A stretch of 11,771 nt of DNA from NCBI GenBank assembly GCA_028689195.1, contig JAQTWR010000050.1, positions 1 to 11,771 on the forward strand. The letters are read 5' to 3'. Source of the DNA: Anaerolineales bacterium (GTDB lineage: Bacteria; Chloroflexota; Anaerolineae; Anaerolineales; Villigracilaceae). The notes under the pieces were generated by a model, which saw only the letters and a program-made list of their open reading frames with translations, had not been told where the DNA came from and did no database searches. This document shows, one piece after another, positions 80 through 9,216 of this stretch (position 1 is its first letter; each line of letters opens with the position of its first letter). Made by a program: the position numbers and the translations under genes.

Positions 80-202
80 GAGAGTGTCTAACTTTGTGGG
101 CTAAACACAAAGTCACGAAGACTCGAAGACGCAAAGAAACCTTTGAGGCTTGGCGTCTTTGCGCCTTCGCGTTAAAGAAAGCCCATCCTTTTAGACACTC
201 CT
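80..202 (+). mobile_element. 123-bp MITE, copy 1, with 8-bp target duplication
   Basis: This is a non-autonomous element of 123 bp with imperfect terminal inverted repeats: the left end reads GAGAGTGTCTAA and the reverse complement of the right end reads AGGAGTGTCTAA. It is flanked by perfect direct repeats GCGCTCTG at 72-79 and 203-210, the footprint of a transposition. Its sequence is identical to copy 2 (inverted) and differs from copy 3 at one base (G152). The core is four degenerate octamers (107-138, roughly NCRAAGNC) followed by four inverted octamers (141-172). The right duplication abuts the stop codon of the sortase gene, so that gene is intact. There is no coding capacity; the transposase must be elsewhere. 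Confidence 0.93.
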
Positions 203-210
203 GCGCTCTG

Positions 211-819
211 TTATTGTATCGGTTTTGCGATGATGAATAATCTTCCCCATTCGGCGTCTCCGCCGCTCTCGATGCAGGTTTGCAATGCGAGGTGGTACGC
301 GCCGCCATAAACTGCGTCGAATAATTCTCCCGTTCCCAAGTTGTTTTGCGTTTTGAGGTCTTTGTATAATCCGTAGGGAAGTTTTTGGTATTGAAGAATA
401 CTTTCCGCTACAAATGTTTCTGTGCGCCCGTCTCCGTAAACGAGGACGATTTGGTCGCCTTGCTTTATGCTGGGGAATGATTTTCCAGCCAGATAGCTGT
501 GAGCCAGCAAGCCGACGTTTCCCGCTTTGGCTGCCATGTTGAATTGCGTAACCGCTGATTTTTCTGTGGAGACGAATCCCGCGTCTTTTTCAGGTTGTTG
601 AACGATGGAGTAAGCCATCACGTTGGGGACGTATACTCCGCGCAGAGTAGAGGCTTCGCCGTTTTTGACTATTGTGACGAAGGCGTTCAGGCTGGGTAAA
701 GACGGGGATGCGCTTTTTGCGTAAACCTGAACGGGGACTATAAACGCGCAAAAGAGAATTGCGAGCAGCGCGCTGGCGATGAAGCGATTTGCGATTTGCG
801 TAAGATTTTTGGATGTCAT
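211..819 (-). CDS. Secreted sortase-like transpeptidase
   Basis: A 202-aa exported protein. Residues 12-34 form a signal peptide or anchor (hydrophobic stretch ending VYA before K35). The rest resembles a sortase domain: a candidate catalytic His107 in GLLAHSYLAG, Cys182 in LALQTC (the sortase T-x-T-C type motif) and Arg193 in WGRLFIIA, in the canonical His-Cys-Arg order with 11 residues from Cys to Arg. Sortases cleave a sorting signal on secreted proteins and attach them to the cell surface; no substrate with a sorting signal is visible here. The ATG at 819 is preceded by AAAGGAA (826-832) at six bases. The gene lies behind a leader of about 350 nt with two GEMM-I riboswitches, so it is probably controlled by a cyclic dinucleotide. 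The sortase subclass cannot be assigned. The family call rests on motifs only. Confidence 0.8.
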   Translation of the reverse strand: MTSKNLTQIANRFIASALLAILFCAFIVPVQVYAKSASPSLPSLNAFVTIVKNGEASTLRGVYVPNVMAYSIVQQPEKDAGFVSTEKSAVTQFNMAAKAGNVGLLAHSYLAGKSFPSIKQGDQIVLVYGDGRTETFVAESILQYQKLPYGLYKDLKTQNNLGTGELFDAVYGGAYHLALQTCIESGGDAEWGRLFIIAKPIQ

Positions 820-900
820 AAGAAGTTCCTTTATGAGCGTCCGATTTCTTACGTATCTTGTCGCCGCTGTTCGCGGAATACGTCGTCAATTATGGATGCT

Positions 901-993
901 CGTTTTCGGTGGCTTGGCGATCATGTCTGCGCTTCGGCAGATTTAGACCCATAGCTTTGCGTCGCCGTCTTTCGACGGGTTTGCCGTTATCGG
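901..993 (-). promoter_or_regulatory. GEMM-I (c-di-GMP-I) riboswitch, gene-proximal aptamer
   Basis: Read on the minus strand, this stretch has the hallmarks of the GEMM-I aptamer in order: GGCAAACC, a stem closed by a GAAA tetraloop (CCGTC-GAAA-GACGG), GACGCAAAGC, GGGTCTA, a second hairpin (TCTGC...GCAGA) and a closing strand GATCGCCAAGCC. By the Vibrio Vc2 numbering the ligand-contacting positions are G20 (at 985) and A47, which fits c-di-GMP. It lies about 80 nt before the sortase ATG. Downstream is a hairpin (851-883, arms ACGTAT/ATACGT with an inner CCGC/GCGG stem) but no T-run, so its output may be translational or rely on alternative pairing. Confidence 0.9.
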
Positions 994-1014
994 TACGATG
1001 AGTTTTTAAGATTC

Positions 1015-1045
1015 AAAACGGGTCTGATTCTTTGAACCAGACCCG
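1015..1045 (-). terminator. Intrinsic terminator between the two riboswitches
   Basis: On the minus strand an 11-bp stem (CGGGTCTGGTT pairing with AATCAGACCCG, one G-U pair) with a five-base loop at 1019-1045 is followed by TTTT (1018-1015). It is placed where an expression platform of the upstream aptamer is expected. Its 5' arm contains GGTCTGG, complementary to CCAGACC at the 3' end of that aptamer (1075-1081), which suggests mutually exclusive folds. The T-run is short. Confidence 0.75.
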
Positions 1046-1064
1046 CGAAAATGTGTAACGATAT

Positions 1065-1158
1065 TATCTTCGGCGGTCTGGCGATCGTGGCTGCATCTCT
1101 GCAACTTTAGACCCATGACTTTGCGTCTCCATCTTTCGGTGGATTTGCGATTTATCGG
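1065..1158 (-). promoter_or_regulatory. GEMM-I riboswitch, promoter-proximal aptamer, variant ligand position
   Basis: This is a second GEMM-I aptamer of nearly the same length as the gene-proximal one and upstream of it in the transcript. It shows CGCAAAT, a stem with GAAA loop (CCACC-GAAA-GATGG), GACGCAAAG, GGGTCTA, a TTGCAGAGATGCAG hairpin and a closing strand GATCGCCAGACC. A47 is kept, but the base at Vc2 position 20 is C (at 1149) where c-di-GMP aptamers have G and the cGAMP-responsive variants have A. Position 26 is T, compensated by A41. The ligand is therefore uncertain. It starts a few bases after the predicted transcription start near 1166. Confidence 0.85.
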
Positions 1159-1172
1159 ATATTTCTGACTTC

Positions 1173-1181
1173 AGTATAGCA
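1173..1181 (-). promoter_or_regulatory. Extended -10 promoter of the riboswitch-sortase transcript
   Basis: On the minus strand TGCTATACT gives a TATACT -10 box (1173-1178) with the extended TG (1180-1181). No good -35 box is found at 17 bases. The predicted start near 1166 is just before the first aptamer, which supports the assignment. Confidence 0.65.
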
Positions 1182-1244
1182 GGAAACGGGCGTTGCGTCC
1201 TTTTCATTTTAGAAAGTTGAACTTTCGCGTTTGCAATCTTCCCG

Positions 1245-1367
1245 AGGAGTGTCTAAAAGGATGGGCTTTCTTTAACGCGAAGGCGCAAAGACGCCAAGCC
1301 TCAAAGGTTTCTTTGCGTCTTCGAGTCTTCGTGACTTTGTGTTTAGCCCACAAAGTTAGACACTCTC
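1245..1367 (-). mobile_element. 123-bp MITE, copy 2 (inverted), with 8-bp target duplication
   Basis: This is base-for-base the reverse complement of the copy at 80-202, flanked by perfect direct repeats TCTTCCCG at 1237-1244 and 1368-1375. It lies in the divergent spacer between the sortase promoter (-10 at 1173-1178) and the symporter promoter (-10 near 1405), damaging neither. Identity to copy 1 implies recent spread. Short open frames through it encode only the meaningless peptide of the repeat. Confidence 0.93.
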
Positions 1368-1401
1368 TCTTCCCGCATTGCGGCGCGGCGCGTTTATTCC
1401 A

Positions 1402-1410
1402 TGCTACACT
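1402..1410 (+). promoter_or_regulatory. Probable extended -10 promoter of the symporter gene
   Basis: TGCTACACT (extended TG at 1402-1403, TACACT at 1405-1410) lies 20 bases before the GTG start at 1430. No -35 match is visible because the upstream bases are GC-rich. The 5' leader would be only about 12 nt but includes the AAAGAGA ribosome site at 1416-1422. Confidence 0.45.
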
Positions 1411-1429
1411 TGCATAAAGAGAATCTATC

Positions 1430-2854
1430 GTGCAAAAACGTCTTCCATTTTGGTTGAAATTCCTATACGGCTCGGGCGACTGGGGCATCTCCAGCATCAA
1501 TATGATGCGGTCGCTTTTTTACGCGCTGTATCTCACGGATGTGGTTCGCATCGAACCGCGTCTCGCGTCTATTGGCGCGTTGGTGGGAATTATCTGGGAC
1601 GCGGTTAATGACCCGATCATCGGAATTATCAGCGACAGGGTCAAGTCGCGTTTGGGGCGCAGGCGTCCCTTCCTTTTGTGGTTTGCGTTTCCGTTCGGGT
1701 TGAGTTTTATAGTCCTGTGGTCTGCGCCGCATTGGGAGAGTCAAATTGCGCTGACGATCTATGTGACGCTCGCGTTTATGTTATCCGATACCTTTACGAC
1801 GCTGGTCGGCGTTCCCTACCTTGCGCTAACTCCCGACCTGACCCGCGATTACGACGAGCGCACCACGCTTTCGAGTTTTCGCACCGTGTTTCAATTGGTC
1901 GGCGCGATTGCGGTCGTAGTCGGCGCGCCGATGATTGTGGATTTTGCAATCGAAAGCGGGGCGACGCAGCAGCAGGGTTTTATGCTCGCGGGCGCATGTT
2001 TCGGCGGGCTGGGCGCAATACCGTTATTCCTCATCGGCTGGTTTGTGCGCGAGAAATACGCGCCCGAAGATCAGGAAGATTTGCCGTTCCGCGAAACCTT
2101 GAAAATCTCATGGGCAAATATCCCGTTTCGATACGCGGCGGGAATTTATATGTTCAACTGGTCTGCGGTGGATATGATCGCCATCGGCTTTCAGTATTTC
2201 TTGTTGTATTGGGTGGCGCAGGGGAATCTGCTTGCCAAGGTCAATGTATTTGGCGTGAGCCTTTCGCTCGAATCCGCGTTTTACGGGGTGATGATGATGG
2301 TTTGTATTCTCTGCGTGCCGTTCTGGCAGTGGCTGGCGCGGACGCGGAACAAACGCGAAGCCTATATTCTCGGCATGATGTTTTGGGTCATCGTGCAGGT
2401 TTTGATTTTTACGATTCAACCCGGTCAAACCGATTATTTGCTGTTCATCGGCGCGCTGGCGGGAGTGGGCGTTTCAGCCGCGTACATCCTGCCCGATTCG
2501 ATTTTGCCCGACGTGATCGAATGGGACGAGTTACGCACGCGCCGCAGGCAGGAGGGAGTCTATTACGGCATCCGAACCCTCATCCGCAAGTTGACGGGCG
2601 CGCTGGTCATCTTCCTCACTTTGCAAACGCTCGGCTGGTCGGGGTATCAAGCGCCGCCGGAGAATGTCGTCCAATTTACGCAGCCAGAATCCGCGCTGTT
2701 GGCGATCCGTTTGATGGTTTCCCTTTTCGGCGGAATCATCCTCGCGGTTTCGATTGTCATTGCGTGGAATTATCCGCTTTCGCGCGAGAAATATGACCGC
2801 GTTGCGAAGTTGTTGAAAAGAAGAAGGGAAGAAGCGCAAGACGTCGCGATATAA
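1430..2854 (+). CDS. GPH/MelB-type sugar-cation symporter (MFS)
   Basis: A 474-aa, 12-segment membrane transporter of the glycoside-pentoside-hexuronide:cation symporter family (MFS_2). Family signatures: WDAVNDP at 56-61, whose Asp57 and Asp61 match the cation-binding Asp55 and Asp59 of E. coli MelB; the loop 2-3 basic motif SRLGRRRPF (73-81); VPYLALTPDLT near 128-138; and the mid-C-terminal ILPDVIEWDELRTRRRQEG near 358-376, the counterpart of the MelB loop ending in an R-x-E-G-like motif. It should import a glycoside or sugar acid with Na+ or H+; the substrate cannot be read from sequence. The start is GTG, chosen because AAAGAGA lies seven bases upstream and the second frame begins with the typical polar N-terminus. 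It stands alone, closed by a terminator that starts within its stop codon. Confidence 0.9.
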   Translation: MQKRLPFWLKFLYGSGDWGISSINMMRSLFYALYLTDVVRIEPRLASIGALVGIIWDAVNDPIIGIISDRVKSRLGRRRPFLLWFAFPFGLSFIVLWSAPHWESQIALTIYVTLAFMLSDTFTTLVGVPYLALTPDLTRDYDERTTLSSFRTVFQLVGAIAVVVGAPMIVDFAIESGATQQQGFMLAGACFGGLGAIPLFLIGWFVREKYAPEDQEDLPFRETLKISWANIPFRYAAGIYMFNWSAVDMIAIGFQYFLLYWVAQGNLLAKVNVFGVSLSLESAFYGVMMMVCILCVPFWQWLARTRNKREAYILGMMFWVIVQVLIFTIQPGQTDYLLFIGALAGVGVSAAYILPDSILPDVIEWDELRTRRRQEGVYYGIRTLIRKLTGALVIFLTLQTLGWSGYQAPPENVVQFTQPESALLAIRLMVSLFGGIILAVSIVIAWNYPLSREKYDRVAKLLKRRREEAQDVAI

Positions 2855-2888
2855 AAAGGCGGATAGTCGCGCGACTATCCGCCTTTTT
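2853..2888. terminator. Bidirectional palindromic terminator
   Basis: A perfect 36-bp palindrome with no built-in loop: AAAAAGGCGGATAGTCGC followed by its exact reverse complement. It provides a GC-rich stem with five T residues on either strand. It overlaps the symporter stop codon and lies 18 bp from the end of the convergent mutase gene, so it can end both transcripts. Confidence 0.9.
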
Positions 2889-2906
2889 ATTTGCAGCCTT
2901 CTATCT

Positions 2907-4586
2907 TTATATTACAGCCATCTCTTCATAAATCCCAAAGACTTCCTTCATCACGCCGACGATTTCGCCGAGCGTGCAATAGGCGTGGACGCATTCCATG
3001 ATATACGGCATGGTGTTCTCCGTTCCCTGACATGCGATTCGTAATTTGTCGAGCGTTTGACCTACGCGCCCGTTGTCGCGCGTCTTGCGGACTTCGTTCA
3101 AGCGCGCTACCTGACGGTCGTATCCATTGGGGTCCATTTTCAAAATTGGGATGGTGAGCGGTTTGTTTTCTTCGTACGCATTTACGCCGACGATTCTTCT
3201 CACGCCAAGATCAATCTCGCGTTGATAGCGATACGCCGCGTCGGCAATTTCGCCCTGGAAGAATCCCTTTTCAATTGCGGGCAGCATACCGCCCAATTCT
3301 TCAATGCGGCGGAAATAATCATACGCCTGCTTTTCGATTCTATCCGTCTGCGCTTCGACGAAGAACGAGCCGCCGAGCGGATCAATCGTATTCGTCACGC
3401 CCGATTCTTCCGCGATGATTTGCTGCGTGCGCAGGGCAATCGTCACCGCATGTTCGGACGGCAGCGCGAGCGCTTCATCGAGCGAATTGGTGTGCAGAGA
3501 TTGCGTTCCGCCGAGAACGGCAGCCAGCGCTTGAAGCGCCACGCGGACGACGTTATTTTCGGGTTGCTGCGCGGTGAGACTCACCCCCGCAGTTTGCGTG
3601 TGGAAGCGAAGCAGCCACGAGCGCGGATTTTTCGCTTTGAATGTTTCGCGCATCTCGCGCGCCCATATCCTTCTTGCGGCGCGATATTTGGCGATCTCTT
3701 CAAAGAAATCATTGTGCGCGTTGAAGAAGAACGACAGACGCGGCGCGAATTCGTCCACGTCCATGCCGCGCGCGATTCCCCAACGGACGTATTCCATGCC
3801 GTCGGCGAGCGTGAAGGCGAGTTCTTGCGCGGCGGTCGAGCCAGCCTCGCGGATGTGATAACCCGAAATCGAAATCGTATTCCACTGCGGGACCTTCTGC
3901 GCGCCGAATTCCATCGTATCCACAACGAGGCGCATCGAAGGTTCGGGCGGGAAGATAAATTCCTTTTGCGCGATAAATTCTTTCAAAATGTCGTTCTGCG
4001 TCGTGCCGCGCAGTTGATCGAGTCGCAGTCCTTTGTTTTCGGCGGCGGCGAGATACATCGCCCAGATAATTGCGGCGGGCGAGTTGATGGTCATGCTGGA
4101 AGAAACTTTGTCGAGCGGAATGCCGTCCAATAAAATTTCCATATCTTTCAGGGATGAGATCGCCACGCCGCATTTGCCAAACTCGCCGAGCGCTTCGGGC
4201 TGGTCGGTGTCGTAGCCCATGAGAGTCGCCAAATCGAACGCGATGCTCAACCCCGTTTGACCTTGATCGAGCAGATATTTGAAGCGCGCGTTGGTTTCCT
4301 CTGCCGTGCCGAAACCCGCGAACATGCGCATCGTCCACAATTTGCTGCGATGCAGGGTGGGATGAACGCCGCGCGTAAACGGATATTCGCCGGGCAGTCC
4401 GAGAGAATCCGCGTAATTTGCGGCGGCGGAATCTAACGGGGTATAGAGGCGATTGATCGGCTCTGAAGAAGTCGTGATAAATTGTTCCGCGCGTTCGGGG
4501 AGTTGTTTCAACGCTTTTTGTAACGAAGTCTTTTCCCAATTTTCAAGCGAGGACTTTAATTCGTCGAGGTTGTTTTTGTCATACAT
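2907..4586 (-). CDS. icmA: B12-dependent acyl-CoA mutase large subunit, isobutyryl-CoA mutase type
   Basis: A 559-aa member of the methylmalonyl-CoA mutase family (catalytic TIM-barrel domain only), without the C-terminal cobalamin-binding domain, so it must pair with a separate small subunit not in this window. The numbering runs in step with the P. shermanii enzyme through the active site: Thr85 and Arg87 ([10 protein letters not shown]), His244 (SISGYH) and Arg219 (PSMR) are present. The two residues that set substrate choice are Phe89 and Gln207 (EFIAQKEF). In methylmalonyl-CoA mutase they are Tyr89 and Arg207; Phe and Gln are the isobutyryl-CoA mutase pair. Length also fits stand-alone IcmA. 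Predicted reaction: isobutyryl-CoA to n-butyryl-CoA and back, linking valine breakdown with butyrate metabolism. The ATG at 4586 has AAAGGAG six bases upstream and its own promoter. Automated annotation will probably say methylmalonyl-CoA mutase; the general family is certain, the substrate is inferred. Confidence 0.93.
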
Positions 4587-4608
4587 GGGGCGCTCCTTTG
4601 TTGGCAGG

Positions 4609-4637
4609 ATTATAAATGGACGACGGACAATTGACCA
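4609..4637 (-). promoter_or_regulatory. Promoter of the acyl-CoA mutase gene
   Basis: On the minus strand TGGTCA (4632-4637) and TATAAT (4609-4614) are spaced by 17 bp, followed by AAAGGAG and the ATG at 4586. The -10 is a perfect consensus. The -35 occupies the same bases as the TTGACC upstream of the divergent DUF3090 promoter. Confidence 0.7.
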
Positions 4638-4653
4638 TAGACTATTTTACTTC

Positions 4654-4662
4654 TGGTATACT
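4654..4662 (+). promoter_or_regulatory. Extended -10 promoter of the DUF3090 gene
   Basis: TGGTATACT gives TATACT at 4657-4662 with extended TG at 4654-4655. A TTGACC at 4631-4636 is 20 bp away, too far for an ideal -35. Transcription should start near 4669, just upstream of the MITE. Confidence 0.6.
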
Positions 4663-4677
4663 GCATTTTATAAAAGG

Positions 4678-4800
4678 GAGAGTGTCTAACTTTGTGGGCT
4701 AAACACAAAGTCACGAAGACTCGAAGACGCAAAGAAACCTTTGAGGCTTTGCGTCTTTGCGCCTTCGCGTTAAAGAAAGCCCATCCTTTTAGACACTCCT
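4678..4800 (+). mobile_element. 123-bp MITE, copy 3, inserted in the DUF3090 5' leader
   Basis: Same orientation as the copy at 80-202 with a single difference (T at 4750 instead of G). It is flanked by perfect direct repeats ATAAAAGG at 4670-4677 and 4801-4808. In this copy the inner hairpin GACGCAAAG / CTTTGCGTC is perfect, so the other two copies probably carry a derived base. It lies between the -10 box (4657-4662) and the start codon (4815) of the next gene, lengthening the leader from about 15 to about 146 nt. The target duplication contains the ribosome site AAAAGG, so a site remains next to the ATG. Confidence 0.95.
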
Positions 4801-4814
4801 ATAAAAGGTAACTT

Positions 4815-5342
4815 ATGCCACGTTTTGAAATAGATGTAGACCCTTGCGATCATATCACCGCAGACGCCATCGGCAAGCCCGGACAGCGCGTTTTTTATCT
4901 GCAAGCCTATCAGGAACAGCGCACCATCACCATTCTTATCGAGAAGGCGCAACTGCAATCGCTTGCCATCGGCATCGAACAATTCCTCGCGCAAATTCAA
5001 CAACAAAACCCGGAGATCGAAGAAGCGTCGGGCGAGTACGCGGAACACGTCATGCGAATCAACCCGCCCGTCGATCCGCTCTTCCGCGCGGGCGAGATCG
5101 GACTCGGCTACGATAAACAACGCGACCGCGTCGTCATCTTTACCAAAGAATTGCTTACCGAAGAATTTGAACCCGAATCCGCCGCGCAAATCCGCTTTTG
5201 GGGGACGCGCTCGCAAATGCGTATACTCGCCCGCTGGGGCGCGGACGTCGTCGCGCGCGGACGTTCCACCTGTCCGCAATGCGGTCAGCCGATGGAACCC
5301 GAAGGACATTTTTGCCCCAAGAAGAACGGGCATTTGAGTTAG
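4815..5342 (+). CDS. DUF3090 family protein with C-terminal zinc-ribbon-like motif
   Basis: A 175-aa soluble protein of the DUF3090 family, whose function is not established. Recognised from the N-terminal pattern (IGKPGQRVFYLQA at 19-31, then IEKAQLQSLA), the central FRAGEIGLGYD (90-100), FWGTRSQMRILARWGADVV (128-146) and a Cys/His-rich tail with C153, C156, H165, C167 and H173, which could bind one metal ion. The ATG at 4815 has AAAAGG six bases upstream (4803-4808). In Actinobacteria DUF3090 genes sit next to a SCO1664-family gene, as here (next gene downstream), which argues for a shared role. No mycothiol gene or phosphatase of the actinobacterial cluster is seen in the window. Confidence 0.85.
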   Translation: MPRFEIDVDPCDHITADAIGKPGQRVFYLQAYQEQRTITILIEKAQLQSLAIGIEQFLAQIQQQNPEIEEASGEYAEHVMRINPPVDPLFRAGEIGLGYDKQRDRVVIFTKELLTEEFEPESAAQIRFWGTRSQMRILARWGADVVARGRSTCPQCGQPMEPEGHFCPKKNGHLS

Positions 5343-5395
5343 CAAGTCGCAAGTCAAAGGTCGCAGGTCTGACTTTTGGCTTGCGACTTTTGACC
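5342..5395 (+). repeat. Heptamer tandem-plus-inverted hairpin repeat
   Basis: The gap between DUF3090 and the next gene is almost entirely a structured repeat: heptamers GCAAGTC, GCAAGTC, AAAGGTC, GCAGGTC (5342-5369) followed by inverted heptamers (GACTTTT, GGCTTGC, GACTTTT). Arms 5344-5362 and 5371-5389 pair over 19 bp with two G-U pairs and an 8-base loop. A TTTT (5388-5391) partly follows the stem, so it might attenuate transcription. No clear ribosome site is left before the ATG at 5400. Confidence 0.85.
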
Positions 5396-5399
5396 AACG

Positions 5400-6110
5400 A
5401 TGAACACTCACGCCGCTAAATTAATTCAGTCAGCGCTCGCGCATGGAAATTATGACCTCAAAGGTCAATTCATGCTGGGCAGCAATTACACTTTTTTTGT
5501 AGACGTTCATTACGAGGGCAAAATCTATAAAGCCGTGTATAAGCCCATCAGAGGCGAGCAGCCGCTTTGGGATTTCCCCGATAACTCGCTGGCGCAGCGC
5601 GAAGTCGCCGCGTATTTATTGAGCGAGGAACTCGGCTTTCACATTGTCCCGTTTACCATCTTGCGCGAGGATGGTCCCTATGGCGCGGGTTCGCTCCAGC
5701 AATATATCAACTACGACGTCGAATATCATTATTTCAACTTTACCGACGAAGATAAACAGGCGCTCAAACCCGTCATGTTGTTTGACCTGCTCGTCAACAA
5801 CGCCGATCGCAAAGGCAGTCACGTTTTTTTTGAAGAGGGCACGCGCGCGCTTTATGCGATAGATCATGGGATTTGTTTCCATGAAGAGGATAAACTCCGC
5901 ACCGTGATTTGGGATTTTGCGAATCAACCCATCCCCGACGAATTGCTCGCGCCTCTTTCCTCGACCTCGAATTGGGCTGCGCTTTTGGAATCTTATCTTA
6001 CGCCCAATGAAATCCGCGCCCTCAAAAGCCGCGCCGAATTTTTATTGACCGCCAAAATGTTTCCCCGCGTCCCGCAAGACAGGCGCGCGTTTCCATATCC
6101 GCCAATTTGA
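5400..6110 (+). CDS. SCO1664 family protein (PI3/4-kinase-like fold)
   Basis: A 236-aa protein of the SCO1664 family, which resembles the phosphatidylinositol 3/4-kinase and HipA-like catalytic fold. Visible motifs: a nucleotide-binding lysine in VYKPIRGEQPLWDF (K48), REVAAY (68-72, the position of the helix glutamate), a catalytic-loop-like NNADRKGSH (133-141, D136) and a metal-binding IDHG (154-157, D155). These suggest ATP-dependent phosphotransfer; the substrate is unknown. It follows DUF3090 by 57 bp filled with a hairpin repeat, and the same pair occurs in Actinobacteria. No good Shine-Dalgarno precedes the ATG at 5400, so translation may be coupled to the upstream gene or weak. It is shorter than many actinobacterial members, but no domain appears lost. 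Confidence 0.83.
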   Translation: MNTHAAKLIQSALAHGNYDLKGQFMLGSNYTFFVDVHYEGKIYKAVYKPIRGEQPLWDFPDNSLAQREVAAYLLSEELGFHIVPFTILREDGPYGAGSLQQYINYDVEYHYFNFTDEDKQALKPVMLFDLLVNNADRKGSHVFFEEGTRALYAIDHGICFHEEDKLRTVIWDFANQPIPDELLAPLSSTSNWAALLESYLTPNEIRALKSRAEFLLTAKMFPRVPQDRRAFPYPPI

Positions 6111-6182
6111 GTTTGCAGGTTTACAAGTTTACAGGTTGGCAAGTTAAAACCTGCTAACTTTCCAACTTTCTAACATTCCAAC
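6111..6182 (+). repeat. Octamer tandem-plus-inverted repeat before hom
   Basis: Seventy-two bases made of nine octamers: GTTTGCAG, GTTTACAA, GTTTACAG, GTTGGCAA, GTTAAAAC, then inverted units CTGCTAAC, TTTCCAAC, TTTCTAAC, ATTCCAAC. The array begins right after the stop codon at 6110 and ends right before the AGGAG ribosome site (6183-6187). The inner units (6135-6145 with 6156-6166) form a hairpin with one mismatch. There is no T-run. Confidence 0.85.
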
Positions 6183-6196
6183 AGGAGAACTTTCTC

Positions 6197-7234
6197 ATGC
6201 ACTACAAACTCGCGCTCATCGGCTTCGGCAACGTTGCCCGCTCGTTGGCAAAATTACTTCTGCGAAAAGAAGATTTGCTCAAACAGCAGGGAATCACGTT
6301 TTCATTTACGGGCATTTCTACGGGAAGTCATGGCTTCGCCGTGAACTCAAACGGACTGGATGTTCAAAAAGCCATTGAATTCGTCGAAAGCGGAAAAGAT
6401 ATTTCGCCATTGAACAATTCCCAATTTCCAATTCCCGATTCCCTTTCTGTAATTCAGCATTCATCCGCCGATGTGATTTTCGAGAATTCCCCCGTCAACA
6501 CGCAGACGGGACAGCCCGCGCTCGATCATATCCGCGCGGCGTTAAATCTTGGGATGCACGCCATTACCGCCAACAAAGGTCCCGTGGTGCATGGCTACCG
6601 CGAATTAACCGCGTTGGCGAAATCCAAAGGGAAGCAGTTCAAGTTTGAATCCACCGTGCTGGGCGGCGCGCCGGTATTTTCCGTCTTCCGCGAATCTTTC
6701 CCGCTCGCGGAACTTTCTTCGATCAAAGGAATTTTCAACGCGACCACCAACGTCATCCTCTCGCGCATGGAAGACGGCGAAGCGTATGAAGACTCGGTCA
6801 AGTACGCGCAGTCCATCGGTTTGGCGGAGACCGACCCAACCAACGACGTGGACGGCTGGGACGCGGCGATCAAAGTCGCGGCGCTGGTCACCGTGTTATG
6901 GGATACGCCCATGACTCCGCAGCAGGTCAATCCCACTGGTATTCGCGGAATTACATCCGAAATGATTGCCAAAGCCAAAGCCGAAGGCAAGCGTTATAAA
7001 TTGGTTTGCTCCGCCGAAAAAGTGGATGGGAAAATTATCGCCAGCGTTTCTCCCCAACTTGTTGATTCATCATCTCCGCTTTACGGCATGATGAATTCCA
7101 GCACGGGCATTACTTTCAGAACCGACGTGATTCTCGATTACTCGATTGTCCTTTCAGAAAAGCCCGGCATGAAGGGCGGTCCCGTTGAAACGGCGTACGG
7201 CTTGTTTGCAGATTTTGTGACGATTGCGAAGTAA
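6197..7234 (+). CDS. hom: Homoserine dehydrogenase, short form without ACT domain
   Basis: A 345-aa NAD(P)-dependent enzyme that reduces aspartate semialdehyde to homoserine, the branch step toward threonine and methionine. Nucleotide-binding loop GFGNVA (9-14); substrate domain with TANKGPV (124-130), GIFNATTN (178-185) and GLAETDPTNDVDGWDAAIK (208-226), in which Glu211, Asp222 and Lys226 correspond to the active-site residues of the yeast enzyme. The protein ends after the catalytic fold, so the C-terminal ACT domain that gives threonine feedback in longer forms is missing; feedback inhibition is probably absent or weak. The start is supported by AGGAG at nine bases. Residues 73-82 (NNSQFPIPDS) come from a heptamer repeat in the DNA and look like a surface insertion. 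It follows the SCO1664-family gene through a hairpin repeat and ends at a strong terminator. Confidence 0.93.
   Translation: MHYKLALIGFGNVARSLAKLLLRKEDLLKQQGITFSFTGISTGSHGFAVNSNGLDVQKAIEFVESGKDISPLNNSQFPIPDSLSVIQHSSADVIFENSPVNTQTGQPALDHIRAALNLGMHAITANKGPVVHGYRELTALAKSKGKQFKFESTVLGGAPVFSVFRESFPLAELSSIKGIFNATTNVILSRMEDGEAYEDSVKYAQSIGLAETDPTNDVDGWDAAIKVAALVTVLWDTPMTPQQVNPTGIRGITSEMIAKAKAEGKRYKLVCSAEKVDGKIIASVSPQLVDSSSPLYGMMNSSTGITFRTDVILDYSIVLSEKPGMKGGPVETAYGLFADFVTIAK
6415..6443 (+). repeat. Heptamer array inside hom
   Basis: Four consecutive heptamers CAATTCC, CAATTTC, CAATTCC, CGATTCC plus one C lie in the coding sequence and encode the Ser/Pro-rich stretch around residues 74-82. They resemble the short tandem heptanucleotide repeats described in cyanobacteria. 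Unlike the intergenic arrays, no inverted half follows. Confidence 0.7.
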
Positions 7235-7269
7235 AAAACCTCCGAGGTATTCAAGACCTCGGAGGTTTT
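7235..7269. terminator. Bidirectional terminator between hom and the DUF1304 gene
   Basis: A 14-bp perfect stem AAAACCTCCGAGGT (7235-7248) and ACCTCGGAGGTTTT (7256-7269) with a seven-base loop. T-runs follow on the plus strand (TTTTCTTTT) and on the minus strand (TTTTTTAC). It starts right after the hom stop codon and lies four bases from the stop of the convergent gene. Confidence 0.9.
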
Positions 7270-7273
7270 CTTT

Positions 7274-7621
7274 TCACGCAACAAAAACCAACAACAGCGC
7301 CGCAATCGCGGGCAGCGCCTGCATATAAAATATCCGTTTGCTGACTGTGAGCGCGCCAAAAATTCCGGCGATGATGACGCAACTGAGAAAGAATATTTTC
7401 GTAGGGGAATCCGCGAACAAACTCCAGATCAAACCAGCCGCGAGAAATCCGTTATACAGCCCTTGATTCATCGCCAGCGTTTTGGATTGTTTGGCGAATT
7501 CTTCGGTCATGTGAAACGACTTTATGCCGCGCGGCTTGTCCCATAGGAACATTTCGAGGTAGAGAAAATTGAAATGCAGAAGGGCGATAATACCGATAAG
7601 AATATCCGAGATGAGTTTCAT
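7274..7621 (-). CDS. DUF1304 family membrane protein
   Basis: A 115-aa integral membrane protein with four predicted helices (about 3-24, 52-69, 75-92, 98-114). The family is recognised from LYLEMFLWD (20-28) after the first helix, MNQGLYNGFLAAGLIWSLF (51-69) and FYMQALPAI (98-106). The function of DUF1304 is not known. The start is placed at 7621 because AGGAG lies six bases upstream and the family begins there; an open frame extends 19 codons further to 7678 but that part overlaps the likely promoter. It is transcribed away from radA out of a shared spacer and ends four bases from the terminator shared with hom. Confidence 0.85.
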   Translation of the reverse strand: MKLISDILIGIIALLHFNFLYLEMFLWDKPRGIKSFHMTEEFAKQSKTLAMNQGLYNGFLAAGLIWSLFADSPTKIFFLSCVIIAGIFGALTVSKRIFYMQALPAIAALLLVFVA

Positions 7622-7650
7622 GGCAGTCTCCTGTAAATAAATTTTTGTTG

Positions 7651-7693
7651 AGTATAGCGCGTTTTCAAAACAGAACATAAATTCTGTTATACT
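7651..7693. promoter_or_regulatory. Divergent promoters with a central dyad (DUF1304 / radA)
   Basis: Two TATACT boxes face away from each other: 7651-7656 on the minus strand and 7688-7693 on the plus strand (with extended TG at 7685-7686). Between them AACAGAA (7669-7675), a 6-bp gap and TTCTGTT (7682-7688) form a perfect 7-bp dyad that covers the -35 area of both promoters, where a dimeric regulator could act. No -35 box is convincing. The dyad does not match a known LexA box that I can name. Confidence 0.55.
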
Positions 7694-7700
7694 CGCTTCA

Positions 7701-7738
7701 CCTCACCCCCAGCCCCTCTCCTAAAAGAGAGGGGGGAG
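7701..7738 (+). repeat. C-rich/G-rich hairpin repeat in the radA leader
   Basis: Pyrimidine-rich heptamers (CCTCACC, CCCAGCC, CCTCTCC) are followed by a purine-rich strand. CCCCTCTC (7713-7720) pairs with GAGAGGGG (7727-7734) around a 6-base loop. The 3' arm runs into the purine-rich ribosome site (GGGGGGAG, 7731-7738) ten bases before the radA ATG, so the fold would partly cover it. Repeats of this CCTCACCCCCAGCCCCTCTC type are common in environmental genomes. Confidence 0.7.
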
Positions 7739-7748
7739 TAAAAAGACT

Positions 7749-9155
7749 ATGTCAAAAACACATACGCGTTATGTCTGTCAACAGTGCGGACGAGTCGTTG
7801 CATCATACATGGGCAAATGCCCGCAGTGTGGATCGTTCAACAGCATGGTGGAAGAAGTTGTCCACGAAGAGCCGATCAGCAAGGGAGCGGTATCAAGCGG
7901 ACGCGGATTAAGCGGACGCTCGGAGCCGCGTCCCATTGCGGATGTCGGCGGCGAAGCGGAAGATAGAATCCACTTGAAGATCGAAGAATTTTCGCGCGTG
8001 CTCGGCGGCGGAATTGTCGTCGGTTCGATTGTCCTCGTCGGCGGCGATCCGGGCATCGGCAAATCCACGCTGATGCTGCAAATGGCGATGGAGATGGCAA
8101 ACACAAAACGCGTGTTGTATGTTTCGGGCGAAGAATCTGAACGACAGATCAAAATGCGCGCGGTGCGTTTGTTGGGCGGCGTAAGGACGAATCGCGATTC
8201 GTCCTTACCCAAAAATCTTTTACTCGTCACCGAAACAAATCTTGAAGTGATTTTGAATCACGTCAAAGACACAAAACCCGATTTATTAATTGTCGATTCA
8301 ATTCAGACCGTTTATCTCTCCGACCTTGATTCATCGGCGGGTTCGGTTTCGCAGGTGCGCGAATGTTCGTCGCAGTTGCGCGAGCTGGCAAAATCTTCGG
8401 GCGTGTCTGTTTTCTTAATTGGGCATGTCACCAAAGAAGGCAACATCGCGGGTCCGCGCGTGCTGGAACATATCGTGGATACGGTTTTATATTTGGAAGG
8501 CGACCGTTTTCAGGCGTATCGTCTGCTGCGTTCGGTGAAGAATCGCTTCGGCGCGACGGCGGAAGTCGGCGTGTTTGAAATGCGCGAAGGCGGCTTGGTC
8601 GAGGTGACGAATCCATCCGAGGCGTTTCTCGCGGAGCGATTGGTCAACGCGGCGGGTTCTGCGATTGCGGTGACGATGGAAGGCACGCGCCCGATTTTGG
8701 TCGAAATTCAGGGATTGACTTCGCCCACGCAGTTCGGCAACGCGCGGCGGACTCCCAACGGGGTGGACTTCAACCGCCTGTTATTGATTACCGCCGTGTT
8801 AACTCGCCGCGTGGGATTGAAACTCGCGGAGCAGGATACTTTTGTGAACGTGGTCGGCGGCATTCAAATTGACGAACCCGCCGCAGATTTGGCGATTGCC
8901 GCCGCGATTGCCTCTTCGTGGAAGGATGTTCCCGTCCGCGCGGAGGCGGTACTCATCGGCGAGATTGGTCTCGCGGGCGAGCTGCGGATGCCCGGTCAAA
9001 TGGTGGCGCGGCTGCGCGAGGCGCAGAAACTCGGCTTCAAGGTTGCCATCGTCCCCAAAGCGATTCGTCAAGGCGAGCCGTATCCAAAAGGAATTGAAAT
9101 CGTCGAGGTCAGGTCGCTGGATCAGGCGCTGACCGCGGCGCTGAAAAAAGGATGA
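7749..9155 (+). CDS. radA: DNA repair protein RadA (Sms)
   Basis: A 468-aa RecA-related ATPase that promotes branch migration and processing of recombination intermediates. Order of domains: an N-terminal zinc finger with C10, C13, C24 and C27 (CQQC...CPQC); a RecA-type core with Walker A GGDPGIGKST (98-107) and Walker B LLIVDSIQT (179-187); the RadA-specific KNRFG motif (264-268); and a C-terminal Lon-protease-like domain (about 290-468). Length is normal for the family. Residues 145-154 come from a perfect 28-bp palindrome in the DNA and lengthen the loop between RLLG and NLLLVTETN compared with the B. subtilis and E. coli proteins; the frame is kept and all motifs are intact. The ATG is preceded by a GGGGGGAG ribosome site within a hairpin. 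Monocistronic, with a terminator about 40 bp downstream. Confidence 0.97.
   Translation: MSKTHTRYVCQQCGRVVASYMGKCPQCGSFNSMVEEVVHEEPISKGAVSSGRGLSGRSEPRPIADVGGEAEDRIHLKIEEFSRVLGGGIVVGSIVLVGGDPGIGKSTLMLQMAMEMANTKRVLYVSGEESERQIKMRAVRLLGGVRTNRDSSLPKNLLLVTETNLEVILNHVKDTKPDLLIVDSIQTVYLSDLDSSAGSVSQVRECSSQLRELAKSSGVSVFLIGHVTKEGNIAGPRVLEHIVDTVLYLEGDRFQAYRLLRSVKNRFGATAEVGVFEMREGGLVEVTNPSEAFLAERLVNAAGSAIAVTMEGTRPILVEIQGLTSPTQFGNARRTPNGVDFNRLLLITAVLTRRVGLKLAEQDTFVNVVGGIQIDEPAADLAIAAAIASSWKDVPVRAEAVLIGEIGLAGELRMPGQMVARLREAQKLGFKVAIVPKAIRQGEPYPKGIEIVEVRSLDQALTAALKKG
8181..8208 (+). repeat. 28-bp perfect palindrome inside radA
   Basis: Fourteen bases GTAAGGACGAATCG are followed at once by their exact reverse complement CGATTCGTCCTTAC. 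It is read in frame as V-R-T-N-R-D-S-S-L inside the radA protein, at a loop whose length varies in the family. Intergenic palindromes of similar form are known in many environmental bacteria, so this is probably a repeat that settled in a coding region. Confidence 0.85.
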
Positions 9156-9194
9156 CGATTTTCCGTTTTGCGAAAATTGCAGCGAACGCATTCG

Positions 9195-9216
9195 AGCCGC
9201 CCATAAAGGGCGGCTT
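9195..9216 (+). terminator. Terminator of radA
   Basis: An 8-bp GC-rich stem AGCCGCCC (9195-9202) and GGGCGGCT (9208-9215) with loop ATAAA, followed by a poor T-run (TTACTTGT). It directly precedes the -10 box of the next gene. Confidence 0.65.

Follow-up and report, generated by a model that had tools for sequence, protein, structure and literature searches.

Genes and repeats in the window

The window (the whole stretch of DNA that was analysed, 11,771 nt) contains three copies of a MITE, plus-strand genes separated by spacers that hold paired arrays of short degenerate repeats, and two further repeats, one inside hom and one in the radA leader. These features are:

80-202, plus strand: MITE copy 1, 123 bp, target duplication 72-79 / 203-210
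About 107-138 (forward) and about 141-172 (inverted), plus strand: octamer arrays in the core of MITE copy 1
1245-1367, minus strand: MITE copy 2, target duplication 1237-1244 / 1368-1375
4678-4800, plus strand: MITE copy 3, target duplication 4670-4677 / 4801-4808
4815-5342, plus strand: DUF3090 protein gene (PF11290)
5343-5395, plus strand: paired heptamer array of GTCRMAR type that occupies the gap from the DUF3090 gene to the following gene
5400-6110, plus strand: gene between the two spacers, with a sub-threshold HipA_2 match only (PF20613, 23 bits; cut-off 27)
6110-6182, plus strand: paired octamer array of GTTNNNAR type (forward 6110-6145, inverted 6156-6182)
6197-7234, plus strand: hom, homoserine dehydrogenase gene (PF00742)
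6415-6443, minus strand: forward-only heptamer array inside hom, reading GGGAATC, GGGAATT, GGAAATT, GGGAATT on that strand
7701-7738, no strand assigned: radA leader repeat, a GC-rich triplex-type motif by visual comparison with a published table

The window was scanned for places where three units in tandem and three in inverted orientation agree at ≥0.745, at periods from 5 to 12. Exactly five places matched: the three MITE cores, the heptamer spacer at 5345-5388 (0.81) and the octamer spacer at 6123-6170 (0.79). In 40 dinucleotide shuffles of the window, for which the scan covered periods 7 and 8, no paired array was found at 0.75, the maxima being 0.71 and 0.71. The original prediction that the MITE core and both spacers are forward-then-inverted arrays was thus borne out. 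Independently, TRF reported period 8 or 16 at 6110-6145, 6156-6182, 141-172 and 4739-4770; inside hom, it reported period 7 at 6415-6443. Rfam at gathering thresholds returned two riboswitches only, and the arrays had no match. The forward-plus-inverted layout of 7- and 8-mers is real in the short intergenic gaps of this bacterium.

The MITE is a separate, ordinary, recently mobile element with a CRAAG octamer hairpin in its core. It has terminal inverted repeats with 21-nt arms (82-102 / 180-200) that are 76% complementary, and 25 of the 27 copies examined are flanked by 8-bp target duplications in which 7 or 8 of the 8 bases are equal. The copies are many and nearly identical: the genome holds at least 42 matches, at least 36 of them full length at ≥97%, both counts being lower bounds from the 40 of 77 first-look candidates that were scored. 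When the MITE end sequence was searched in the loci collected for the analysis, MITE-like ends only were found. CRAAG octamer pairs occur in at least seven phyla, judged by record titles, and also on viral contigs, with counts of one and two.

Paired arrays in the genome and in orthologous spacers

For a sample of the genome, 100 of its 422 contigs were drawn at random and the first 80 of these were used, which gave 77 N-free segments with 539,343 bases, or about one fifth of the genome. At thresholds of ≥0.75, ≥0.79 and ≥0.83, this sample contained 27, 22 and 17 paired arrays of period 8, compared to 0, 0 and 0 in shuffles, and 13, 6 and 1 of period 7, compared to 0.7, 0 and 0. The comparison with shuffled sequence that had been proposed earlier thus gave an excess at both periods. 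Periods 9-12 pooled yielded one array at ≥0.75, of period 10. Periods 5 and 6 gave 13 and 8 arrays (shuffles, 6.7 and 2.7), with no excess over mirror and complement controls. At periods 7 and 8, these nonsense controls produced three mirror and five complement pairs each at ≥0.75. Direct-direct pairs at the same threshold numbered 13 at period 7 and one at period 8; long direct heptamer arrays are thus as numerous as paired ones (13 and 13), which counts against the interpretation favoured below. Simple lag-run counts also gave a period-7 excess, but were spoiled by N runs, and the paired scan took their place. When the 80-contig sample was searched for plain hairpins, 65 scored ≥14, mostly non-periodic by eye.

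Twelve of the 22 period-8 matches at ≥0.79 are copies of the MITE. Among the other ten, six are diverged relatives of it, as judged by eye (L068, L070, L083, L090, L129 and L132), and four have no MITE ends (three in L089, one in L115). An inverted partner was present for 13 of 32 tandem 7-mer arrays in spacers and for 12 of 32 8-mer arrays, where the octamer count takes in copies of the MITE and an element may have contributed both of its arms; with reversed or complemented units, the number was 0-1 of 32.

These counts bear on the notion that slippage made the arrays neutrally, in units of 7-8 nt, and that chance or composition accounts for the inverted halves. In most genomes, heptamers are reported to outnumber the other classes of 5-11 nt repeats, as recounted in PMC4679880, and indels in unit multiples separate two close strains (see below). 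However, inverted partners are well above the nonsense controls, and shuffles yield no array of period 8 and 0.7 of period 7. The controls already disfavour this reading, which we regard as improbable.

Heptamer arrays are found in short spacers, mostly between co-directional genes, although the distances from array to gene are approximate, since the genes were called by a home-made procedure from codon scores. Inside called genes lie 18 of 48 heptamer elements and 6 of 22 octamer elements, 24 in all at period 7-8, some of them perhaps in miscalled genes and some there by chance. The heptamer figure counts against the interpretation favoured below.

The spacers flanking the 5400-6110 gene were also compared with those of relatives, as had been suggested. 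Spacers outside 35-300 nt or lacking either neighbour were left out beforehand, and 13 of 45 were too short for the scan and were excluded from the negatives. Among the testable orthologues, a significant paired array was present in 12 of 16 and 9 of 16 for the two spacers. Unit families and lengths vary by species, so that different families occupy one place in different species. Repeat turnover can thus replace short intergenic spacers, which calls for caution when intergenic conservation is interpreted.

Unit grammar, polarity and the origin of the arms

The units are 7-10 nt long, and some of their positions are fixed and some free. Over 41 elements, conservation varied between positions more than expected from neutral drift in a simulated null (variance 45.3 vs. 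29.2, sd 2.2; z = 7.4). Polarity is one-sided: 89 element pairs had the same polarity and four the opposite, all four in the TTACCAA family. One polarity is kept by eight of the nine unit families. The tests of arms, conservation and polarity over-sampled families similar to the window's own arrays. Two of the results run counter to our preferred interpretation, namely that position heterogeneity was significant (p < 0.05) in only 5 of 41 single elements and that TTACCAA shows both polarities.

With slightly less than even confidence, we favour the interpretation that these are chromosomal repeats acting at the DNA level, comprising many unit families, in which convergent tandem arrays have their polarity and fixed positions kept by a putative reader. 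Fixed positions and polarity would persist since something reads the units as DNA, perhaps a protein of nucleoid type, or else an enzyme that copies the units and so spreads them. Slippage would add and remove units, and the inverted half may be born by a rare fold-back or joining event, after which the arms would diverge. The fixed positions could also reflect some mutational constraint.

The original prediction had instead proposed strand switching or fold-back copying, which would produce a perfect inverted copy that mutation and slippage later blur, with no protein reader. One perfect palindrome, with four octamers per arm, was indeed found in the genome (L036). In the CRAAG arms of other phyla, the match to the hairpin partner at free positions was 0.677, compared to 0.477 when partners were swapped (55 distinct arm pairs), again as copying would predict. 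An earlier version of this test (0.753 vs. 0.618) was discarded because positions fixed by the search pattern had biased it. In the 41 elements from this family of genomes, however, there was no partner excess: arms in hairpin register matched no better than arms with shuffled unit order (0.757 vs. 0.763, sd 0.008), and similarity between neighbouring units did not exceed that between units two apart (0.729 vs. 0.738). Copying of a hairpin arm is thus not supported as the usual state. The non-uniform conservation of positions, the one-sided polarity (89:4) and the recurrence of unit families in several species, and of CRAAG across phyla, also argue against strand switching, which we consider possible but rather doubtful. 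The associated idea of a common way of making the arrays, as opposed to one ancestor, held in part. It is consistent with unrelated units in one architecture and with replacement at one place, but the MITE copies do share one ancestor, and for CRAAG alone, independent origin is further weakened by its recurrence across phyla.

Two strains that are about 98% alike, G041 and G051, differ in the length of three of eight arrays. The changes are 62 nt, 14 nt (2 × 7), and 16 nt (2 × 8) plus 5 nt in the other arm; in two of the three, one arm has thus gained or lost two units, which strand switching followed by slippage would also allow. Outside the arrays, the 67,224 aligned positions contained 14 indels of ≥6, one of which is the same 62-nt event. 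The 62-nt change is no multiple of 7, and point substitutions in the eight arrays (14 of 604) were close to the background of 1.6%; both weigh against the interpretation involving a reader. The origin and upkeep of the arrays are a question that can be tested through such comparisons of close strains.

The arrays might also be intergenic RNA hairpins that serve as terminators, attenuators or mRNA stabilisers, with selection acting on base pairing within the transcript. The prevalence of heptamers between co-directional genes would fit, and the heptamer spacer in the window has a folding energy of -33.3 kcal/mol in the sense and -21.9 kcal/mol in the antisense direction. In 22 tight co-directional arrays, however, sense G-U and A-C mispairs were balanced (40:37, p = 0.82), and the mean folding energies were -22.2 kcal/mol for sense and -21.7 kcal/mol for antisense (p = 0.68). 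As unit partners show no excess either, selection on the RNA seems unlikely.

Relation to described repeats

Intergenic heptanucleotide tandem arrays are known in cyanobacteria as STRR. The original prediction knew of no description of the paired layout, but precedents exist. In Geobacter metallireducens (Aklujkar et al. 2009, PMC2700814), classes 1-3 of putative global-regulator sites are pairs in which three to five tandem octamers or heptamers face a partner site on the opposite strand. There are 24, 21 and 8 such pairs, with three unit types in one genome (GTTGCTYN, TCTCCGTS and MTYCTGA), and IHF/HU were proposed as putative binders. In Xanthomonas (Rehm et al. 2015, PMC4692102), GGGAATC heptamers, degenerate as GGGANTN with fixed and free positions, form pairs of convergent sites, 70 in one genome and 75 in another. 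Most of these lie near stop codons in gaps that separate co-directional ORFs, with none on the plasmids examined there; Nostoc is described as having only a few GGGAATC pairs. The heptamer spacer in the window resembles this system, being a convergent pair of a degenerate heptamer with fixed positions, in a short gap between co-directional neighbours. What is new here is the many unit families, the fixed polarity and the replacement at one site. Our literature search by sequence word, covering titles and abstract openings, found nothing on CRAAG or GTC arrays among the papers listed.

The single G-rich Xanthomonas unit was attributed to G-quadruplexes (PMC4692102). The two spacer arrays and the GTC and GTT units contain no GGG. 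It is present in some GAC-family units elsewhere, but most families (GTCRMAR, GTTNNNAR, CRAAG, TCAGT) lack it, and quadruplexes are therefore unable to explain the common layout. More broadly, since the same layout occurs in many unrelated families, with near-uniform polarity and differing families per spacer, explanations by IHF/HU or G-quadruplexes are disfavoured as general ones. Repeat-bearing regions in Xanthomonas were reported to be more conserved than controls (PMC4692102), in contrast to the turnover observed here, a difference that weighs against our preferred interpretation. The TAACTGA heptamer arrays of cyanobacteria and Beggiatoaceae (PMC4679880) are likewise intergenic 7-nt tandems with a scattered phylogenetic distribution, but differ from the paired layout in that almost all those reported are direct (169 direct sets, one inverted).

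REP/REPIN elements (PMC3116915, PMC3733652) resemble the arrays described here in that they are short palindromes between genes, are present in many copies and occur in several phyla. All arrays might be mobile hairpins of this kind, with a RAYT-like Y1 transposase to move them. A GTAG or CGTC tag marks most REPs (PMC3733652), but neither was seen by eye on either strand of 5343-5399 and 6111-6196. The 82%-complete genome has three Y1_Tnp matches, but a scan of their 3.3-kb loci at periods 7-10 gave no paired arrays at ≥0.74, and no family-specific RAYT flanked by copies was found in it. The lack of arrays beside these matches counts against our preferred interpretation as well. The heptamer array has 15 further genome matches at 13 places, some of them marginal, and the octamer array nine at eight places (both E ≤ 1), but these are only 71-91% identical and mostly partial, except for one 95% match over 19 bases. 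Mobility of this type thus seems unlikely.

Nine unit clusters were found in one bacterial family, and the same layout occurs in several phyla. Conceivably, though we would not expect it, paired convergent arrays make up one widespread class of bacterial DNA element with a unit grammar for each family and one polarity in all families except one. Should recognition be what maintains the grammar, there would be a set of cognate proteins that read 7-10 nt units, perhaps on single-stranded DNA.

The two remaining repeats in the window are different. The hom array is forward-only as described, but lies within coding sequence, and its unit resembles the GGGAATC of Xanthomonas. At the array, the hom protein is two residues longer than most aligned relatives, a length common to two of four congeners (L137 and L142), and the possibility of a recent insertion was dropped after this alignment. 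An equally periodic 29-nt stretch occurs in 3 of 459 genes.

The radA leader, which had been considered a looser 7- or 8-mer pair, had no match at three units per arm; when arms of two units were allowed, its raw score was 0.79 (period 7) or 0.80 (period 5). The closest described repeats are Geobacter class 4 and a G/C-rich motif for intrastrand triplexes (Holder et al. 2015, PMC4666352). The order of its blocks, CCCTCTCC, GGAGAGGGG and GGGTGAGG, is the same as in the triplex motif, which is not made of 7- or 8-mers; among the features in the window, only the radA leader belongs with this motif. On the reverse complement, a pyrimidine arm, a purine arm and a second purine arm follow in the published order, as judged by eye, making it a candidate triplex-type element.

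Paired arrays in the window and its genome

A match in the paired scan consists of three tandem units and, no more than 24 bases further on, three inverted units of the same consensus; its score is that of the worse arm. Five places in the window reached ≥0.745 at periods between 5 and 12:

80-202, 1245-1367 and 4678-4800: MITE copies, core of each, score 0.83
5345-5388: heptamer spacer, score 0.81
6123-6170: octamer spacer, score 0.79

No match at 0.75 appeared in forty dinucleotide shuffles of the window, for which periods 7 and 8 were scanned. The scan was extended to 539,343 bases of the window's own genome (the first 80 of 100 randomly drawn contigs). The assembly, in which the window is contig 55, comprises 2.85 Mb in 422 contigs and is 82% complete; its gene content points to Chloroflexota. 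Paired arrays at ≥0.75 in this sample came to 27 (period 8) and 13 (period 7), where shuffles averaged 0 and 0.7. The mirror and complement nonsense controls yielded 3 and 5, respectively, at each of these periods. The original prediction asked for a test against shuffled sequence; in this sample, an excess was present for units of 7 and 8 bases. For units of 5 and 6 bases, the paired counts of 13 and 8 exceeded shuffles (6.7 and 2.7) but not the nonsense controls (15 and 15; 11 and 8). Forward-forward pairs were counted as well, 13 of them with heptamer and one with octamer periodicity; long heptamer arrays are thus direct as often as they are paired.

Tandem arrays in spacers had an inverted partner in 13/32 cases for heptamers and 12/32 for octamers, the latter figure taking in MITE copies, compared to 0-1/32 in controls; the corresponding numbers were 0/9 at period 6 and 1/6 at period 9. 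Twenty 20-kb stretches from related genomes contained 5, 0, 2 and 1 paired arrays at ≥0.79 for periods 7, 8, 9 and 10, while shuffles gave none and each nonsense control gave one, at period 7. This spread over periods 7, 9 and 10 indicates that the array period differs from species to species. The paired layout is real and general, and the proposal that one architecture recurs with different unit sequences holds for the spacer arrays. A plain hairpin search of the genome sample returned a palindrome of AGGTGACAGTCACCT type that is not periodic and recurs in several contigs (L102, L096, L132, L123 and others).

The 22 period-8 matches at ≥0.79 comprised 12 MITE copies, six diverged MITE relatives and four arrays without MITE ends. 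The 123-bp MITE has at least 42 genome matches, 36 of them full length at ≥97%, a lower bound from scoring 40 of 77 first-look candidates, and 8-bp target duplications were present at 25 of the 27 copies examined. It is an ordinary, recently mobile element that should be kept apart from the spacer arrays. The diverged relatives, recognized by eye from their related ends (such as GGGAGTGACTAA or GGGAGTGGCTAA), are found in L068 (about 9050-9200), L070, L083, L090, L129 and L132, and have different octamer cores. CRAAG-type core octamers also occur without MITE ends (L089, L115). Scanning one genome per species returned at least 110 CRAAG stretches; judging by record titles, the 80 loci listed fall in seven phyla (Bacteroidota, Verrucomicrobiota, Planctomycetota, Acidobacteriota, Pseudomonadota, Myxococcota and Chloroflexota). 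Other phyla also have the layout with different families: among the matches at ≥0.785 in the listed loci, 16/110 are not CRAAG-like. The CRAAG pattern was seen in one viral contig and the GTC heptamer pair pattern in two.

Unit families, polarity and gene context

A de novo scan of 1.21 Mb identified 79 distinct elements. Clustering of the 72 elements at ≥0.755 gave nine families with two or more members, among which GTY and GTT are over-sampled because the set takes in loci retrieved for their resemblance to arrays of the window:

Heptamers: GTY, 11; GAC, 8; TTACCAA, 4; ACGCA, 3; a weak ATCA-like pair, 2
Octamers: GTT, 9; CRAAG, 5
Nonamers: GCGAA, 3 (one genome stretch); CGCNAAG, 2 (one stretch)

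Polarity agreed in 89 within-family element pairs; the four pairs of opposite polarity all belong to TTACCAA. Mismatches to the unit consensus cluster at certain positions: in the 41 elements at ≥0.78, the variance was 45.3, compared to 29.2 (sd 2.2) upon permutation, and the concentration reached a z of 7.4 relative to simulated neutral drift. Taken singly, only 5/41 elements were heterogeneous at p<0.05. Neighbouring units in these elements were not more similar than units two apart (0.729 vs. 0.738).

Paired heptamers at ≥0.75 in the own-genome sample occupied 5/86 co-directional, 0/17 convergent and 0/10 divergent short (50-130 nt) spacers; for longer spacers, the counts were 1/78, 0/13 and 1/30. 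Octamers, mostly MITE and CRAAG, were found in 1/86 short co-directional, 10/78 long co-directional and 9/30 long divergent spacers of the same sample. Related genomes had paired heptamers in 4/60 short and 1/69 long co-directional, 3/20 convergent and 0/32 divergent spacers. When an array lay ≤40 bases from two co-directional genes (n = 22), both distances were ≤15 bases in 11 cases. Heptamer elements fell inside called genes in 18 of 48 cases, which may represent miscalls or chance matches.

Turnover between strains and among relatives

Strains G041 and G051 (98% identity over the first stretch compared) were aligned over about 68 kb of orthologous DNA, mostly picked for containing arrays. 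Gain and loss in close strains, which the original prediction had proposed as a check, was observed: 3/8 paired arrays differed in length. One has lost 62 nt and carries 7 substitutions among the 35 positions left, one has gained exactly two heptamers within a single arm, and one has lost two octamers from one arm and 5 nt from the other. The remaining five kept their length, one of them with a single inserted base. Point substitutions in arrays (14/604) were close to the background of 1.6%. Outside arrays, the 67,224 aligned positions contained 14 indels of ≥6: the 62-nt event already counted in arrays, one indel within a forward heptamer array, two that form part of a spacer with a swapped array, and ten that are other repeats or replaced segments. 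In the swapped spacer (L325, about 13200-13310, in G041; L337 in G051), TACAAGT-like heptamers of one strain correspond to a CGCNAAG nonamer hairpin and GTC heptamers of the other; the tract is locally more diverged, which suggests exchange of a short segment. Other repeat arrays also differ between the strains (L328, about 13365-13945, vs. L334): one has a 14-nt unit, and another a unit of roughly 19 nt (GCAGACACGCAGGTCTGGG), with 76 more bases in G051.

A search of 61 genomes from the same family found the gene at 5400-6110, which separates the two window spacers, in 56; the best 30 of these 56 loci were compared. Spacers of 35-300 nt numbered 24 upstream and 21 downstream, with 16 and 16 long enough for the scan; a paired array was detected at shuffle p≤0.02 in 12/16 and 9/16, respectively. 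A direct-repeat version of the test gave p≤0.02 in 15 of those 21 spacers, indicating that it measures periodicity as well as pairing. The array families differ among relatives and have been replaced at one place, as the suggested comparison of the same spacers brought out: in the upstream spacer, GTC heptamers make up the array of the window and of two other loci, GTT heptamers were seen three times, GTT octamers four times, and CRAAG-type nonamers and a GAGA-type octamer once each. In the genus labelled g17, a GTT octamer array is common to two species and evidently inherited; the corresponding spacer of a third species holds GTC heptamers (L144, L148, L151).

Arm copying, folding and precedents

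Copying of a hairpin arm had been offered as a way of making the arrays. As their usual state, it is unsupported: in the 41 elements, arms matched at 0.757 in the best hairpin register vs. 0.763 (sd 0.008) with unit order shuffled, and they are not mutual copies. The CRAAG arms of other phyla are partly copies of each other: over 55 distinct arm pairs, free positions match the partner at 0.677 vs. 0.477 after swapping units. The genome contains one perfect palindrome (L036). Copying may thus be the birth event of arrays, whose arms would usually differ later. The 22 arrays closely flanked by co-directional genes had as many G-U as A-C mispairs on the sense strand (40 and 37), and their sense folding was on average not stronger than antisense, which argues against general selection for an RNA hairpin. 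The window's heptamer array folds more strongly in the sense direction (-33.3 vs. -21.9 kcal/mol antisense). Most likely, the arrays are DNA-level elements in which a putative recognising factor would keep unit grammar and polarity, while units would be gained and lost by slippage within each arm separately.

The many-family, one-polarity picture had no description in the literature searched, most subscription journals lying outside it. Direct TAACTGA heptamers are described by MacGregor 2015 (PMC4679880). The original prediction knew of no description of the paired layout, which is partly known already. Work on Geobacter metallireducens reports three to five tandem octamers or heptamers at sites paired on opposite strands and suggested as IHF/HU binders, with a CCYTC-based class 4 similar to sequences in many genomes (Aklujkar et al. 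2009, PMC2700814). For degenerate GGGAATC heptamers of Xanthomonas, Rehm et al. 2015 (PMC4692102) count 70 and 75 convergent pairs in two genomes, most of them lying between co-directional ORFs; they read the heptamers as quadruplex formers and find the regions around them better conserved than controls. The radA leader (7701-7738), previously grouped with the paired arrays, is to be taken out, as it resembles the triplex motif described by Holder et al. 2015 (PMC4666352).

Other features of the window are as follows:

Genes by Pfam: MFS transporter, methylmalonyl-CoA mutase, DUF3090, homoserine dehydrogenase, DUF1304, solute-binding protein
RadA-like ATPase gene by Pfam (the name radA comes from the original prediction)
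One protein with a sub-threshold Pfam match to HipA_2 only
211-819, minus strand: ORF without a match in the Pfam search
905-995 and 1069-1159, minus strand: two c-di-GMP-I riboswitch aptamers in tandem (75 and 66 bits), both upstream of ORF 211-819
2851-2890: perfect loopless 20-bp inverted repeat where the MFS transporter gene ends, a probable bidirectional terminator
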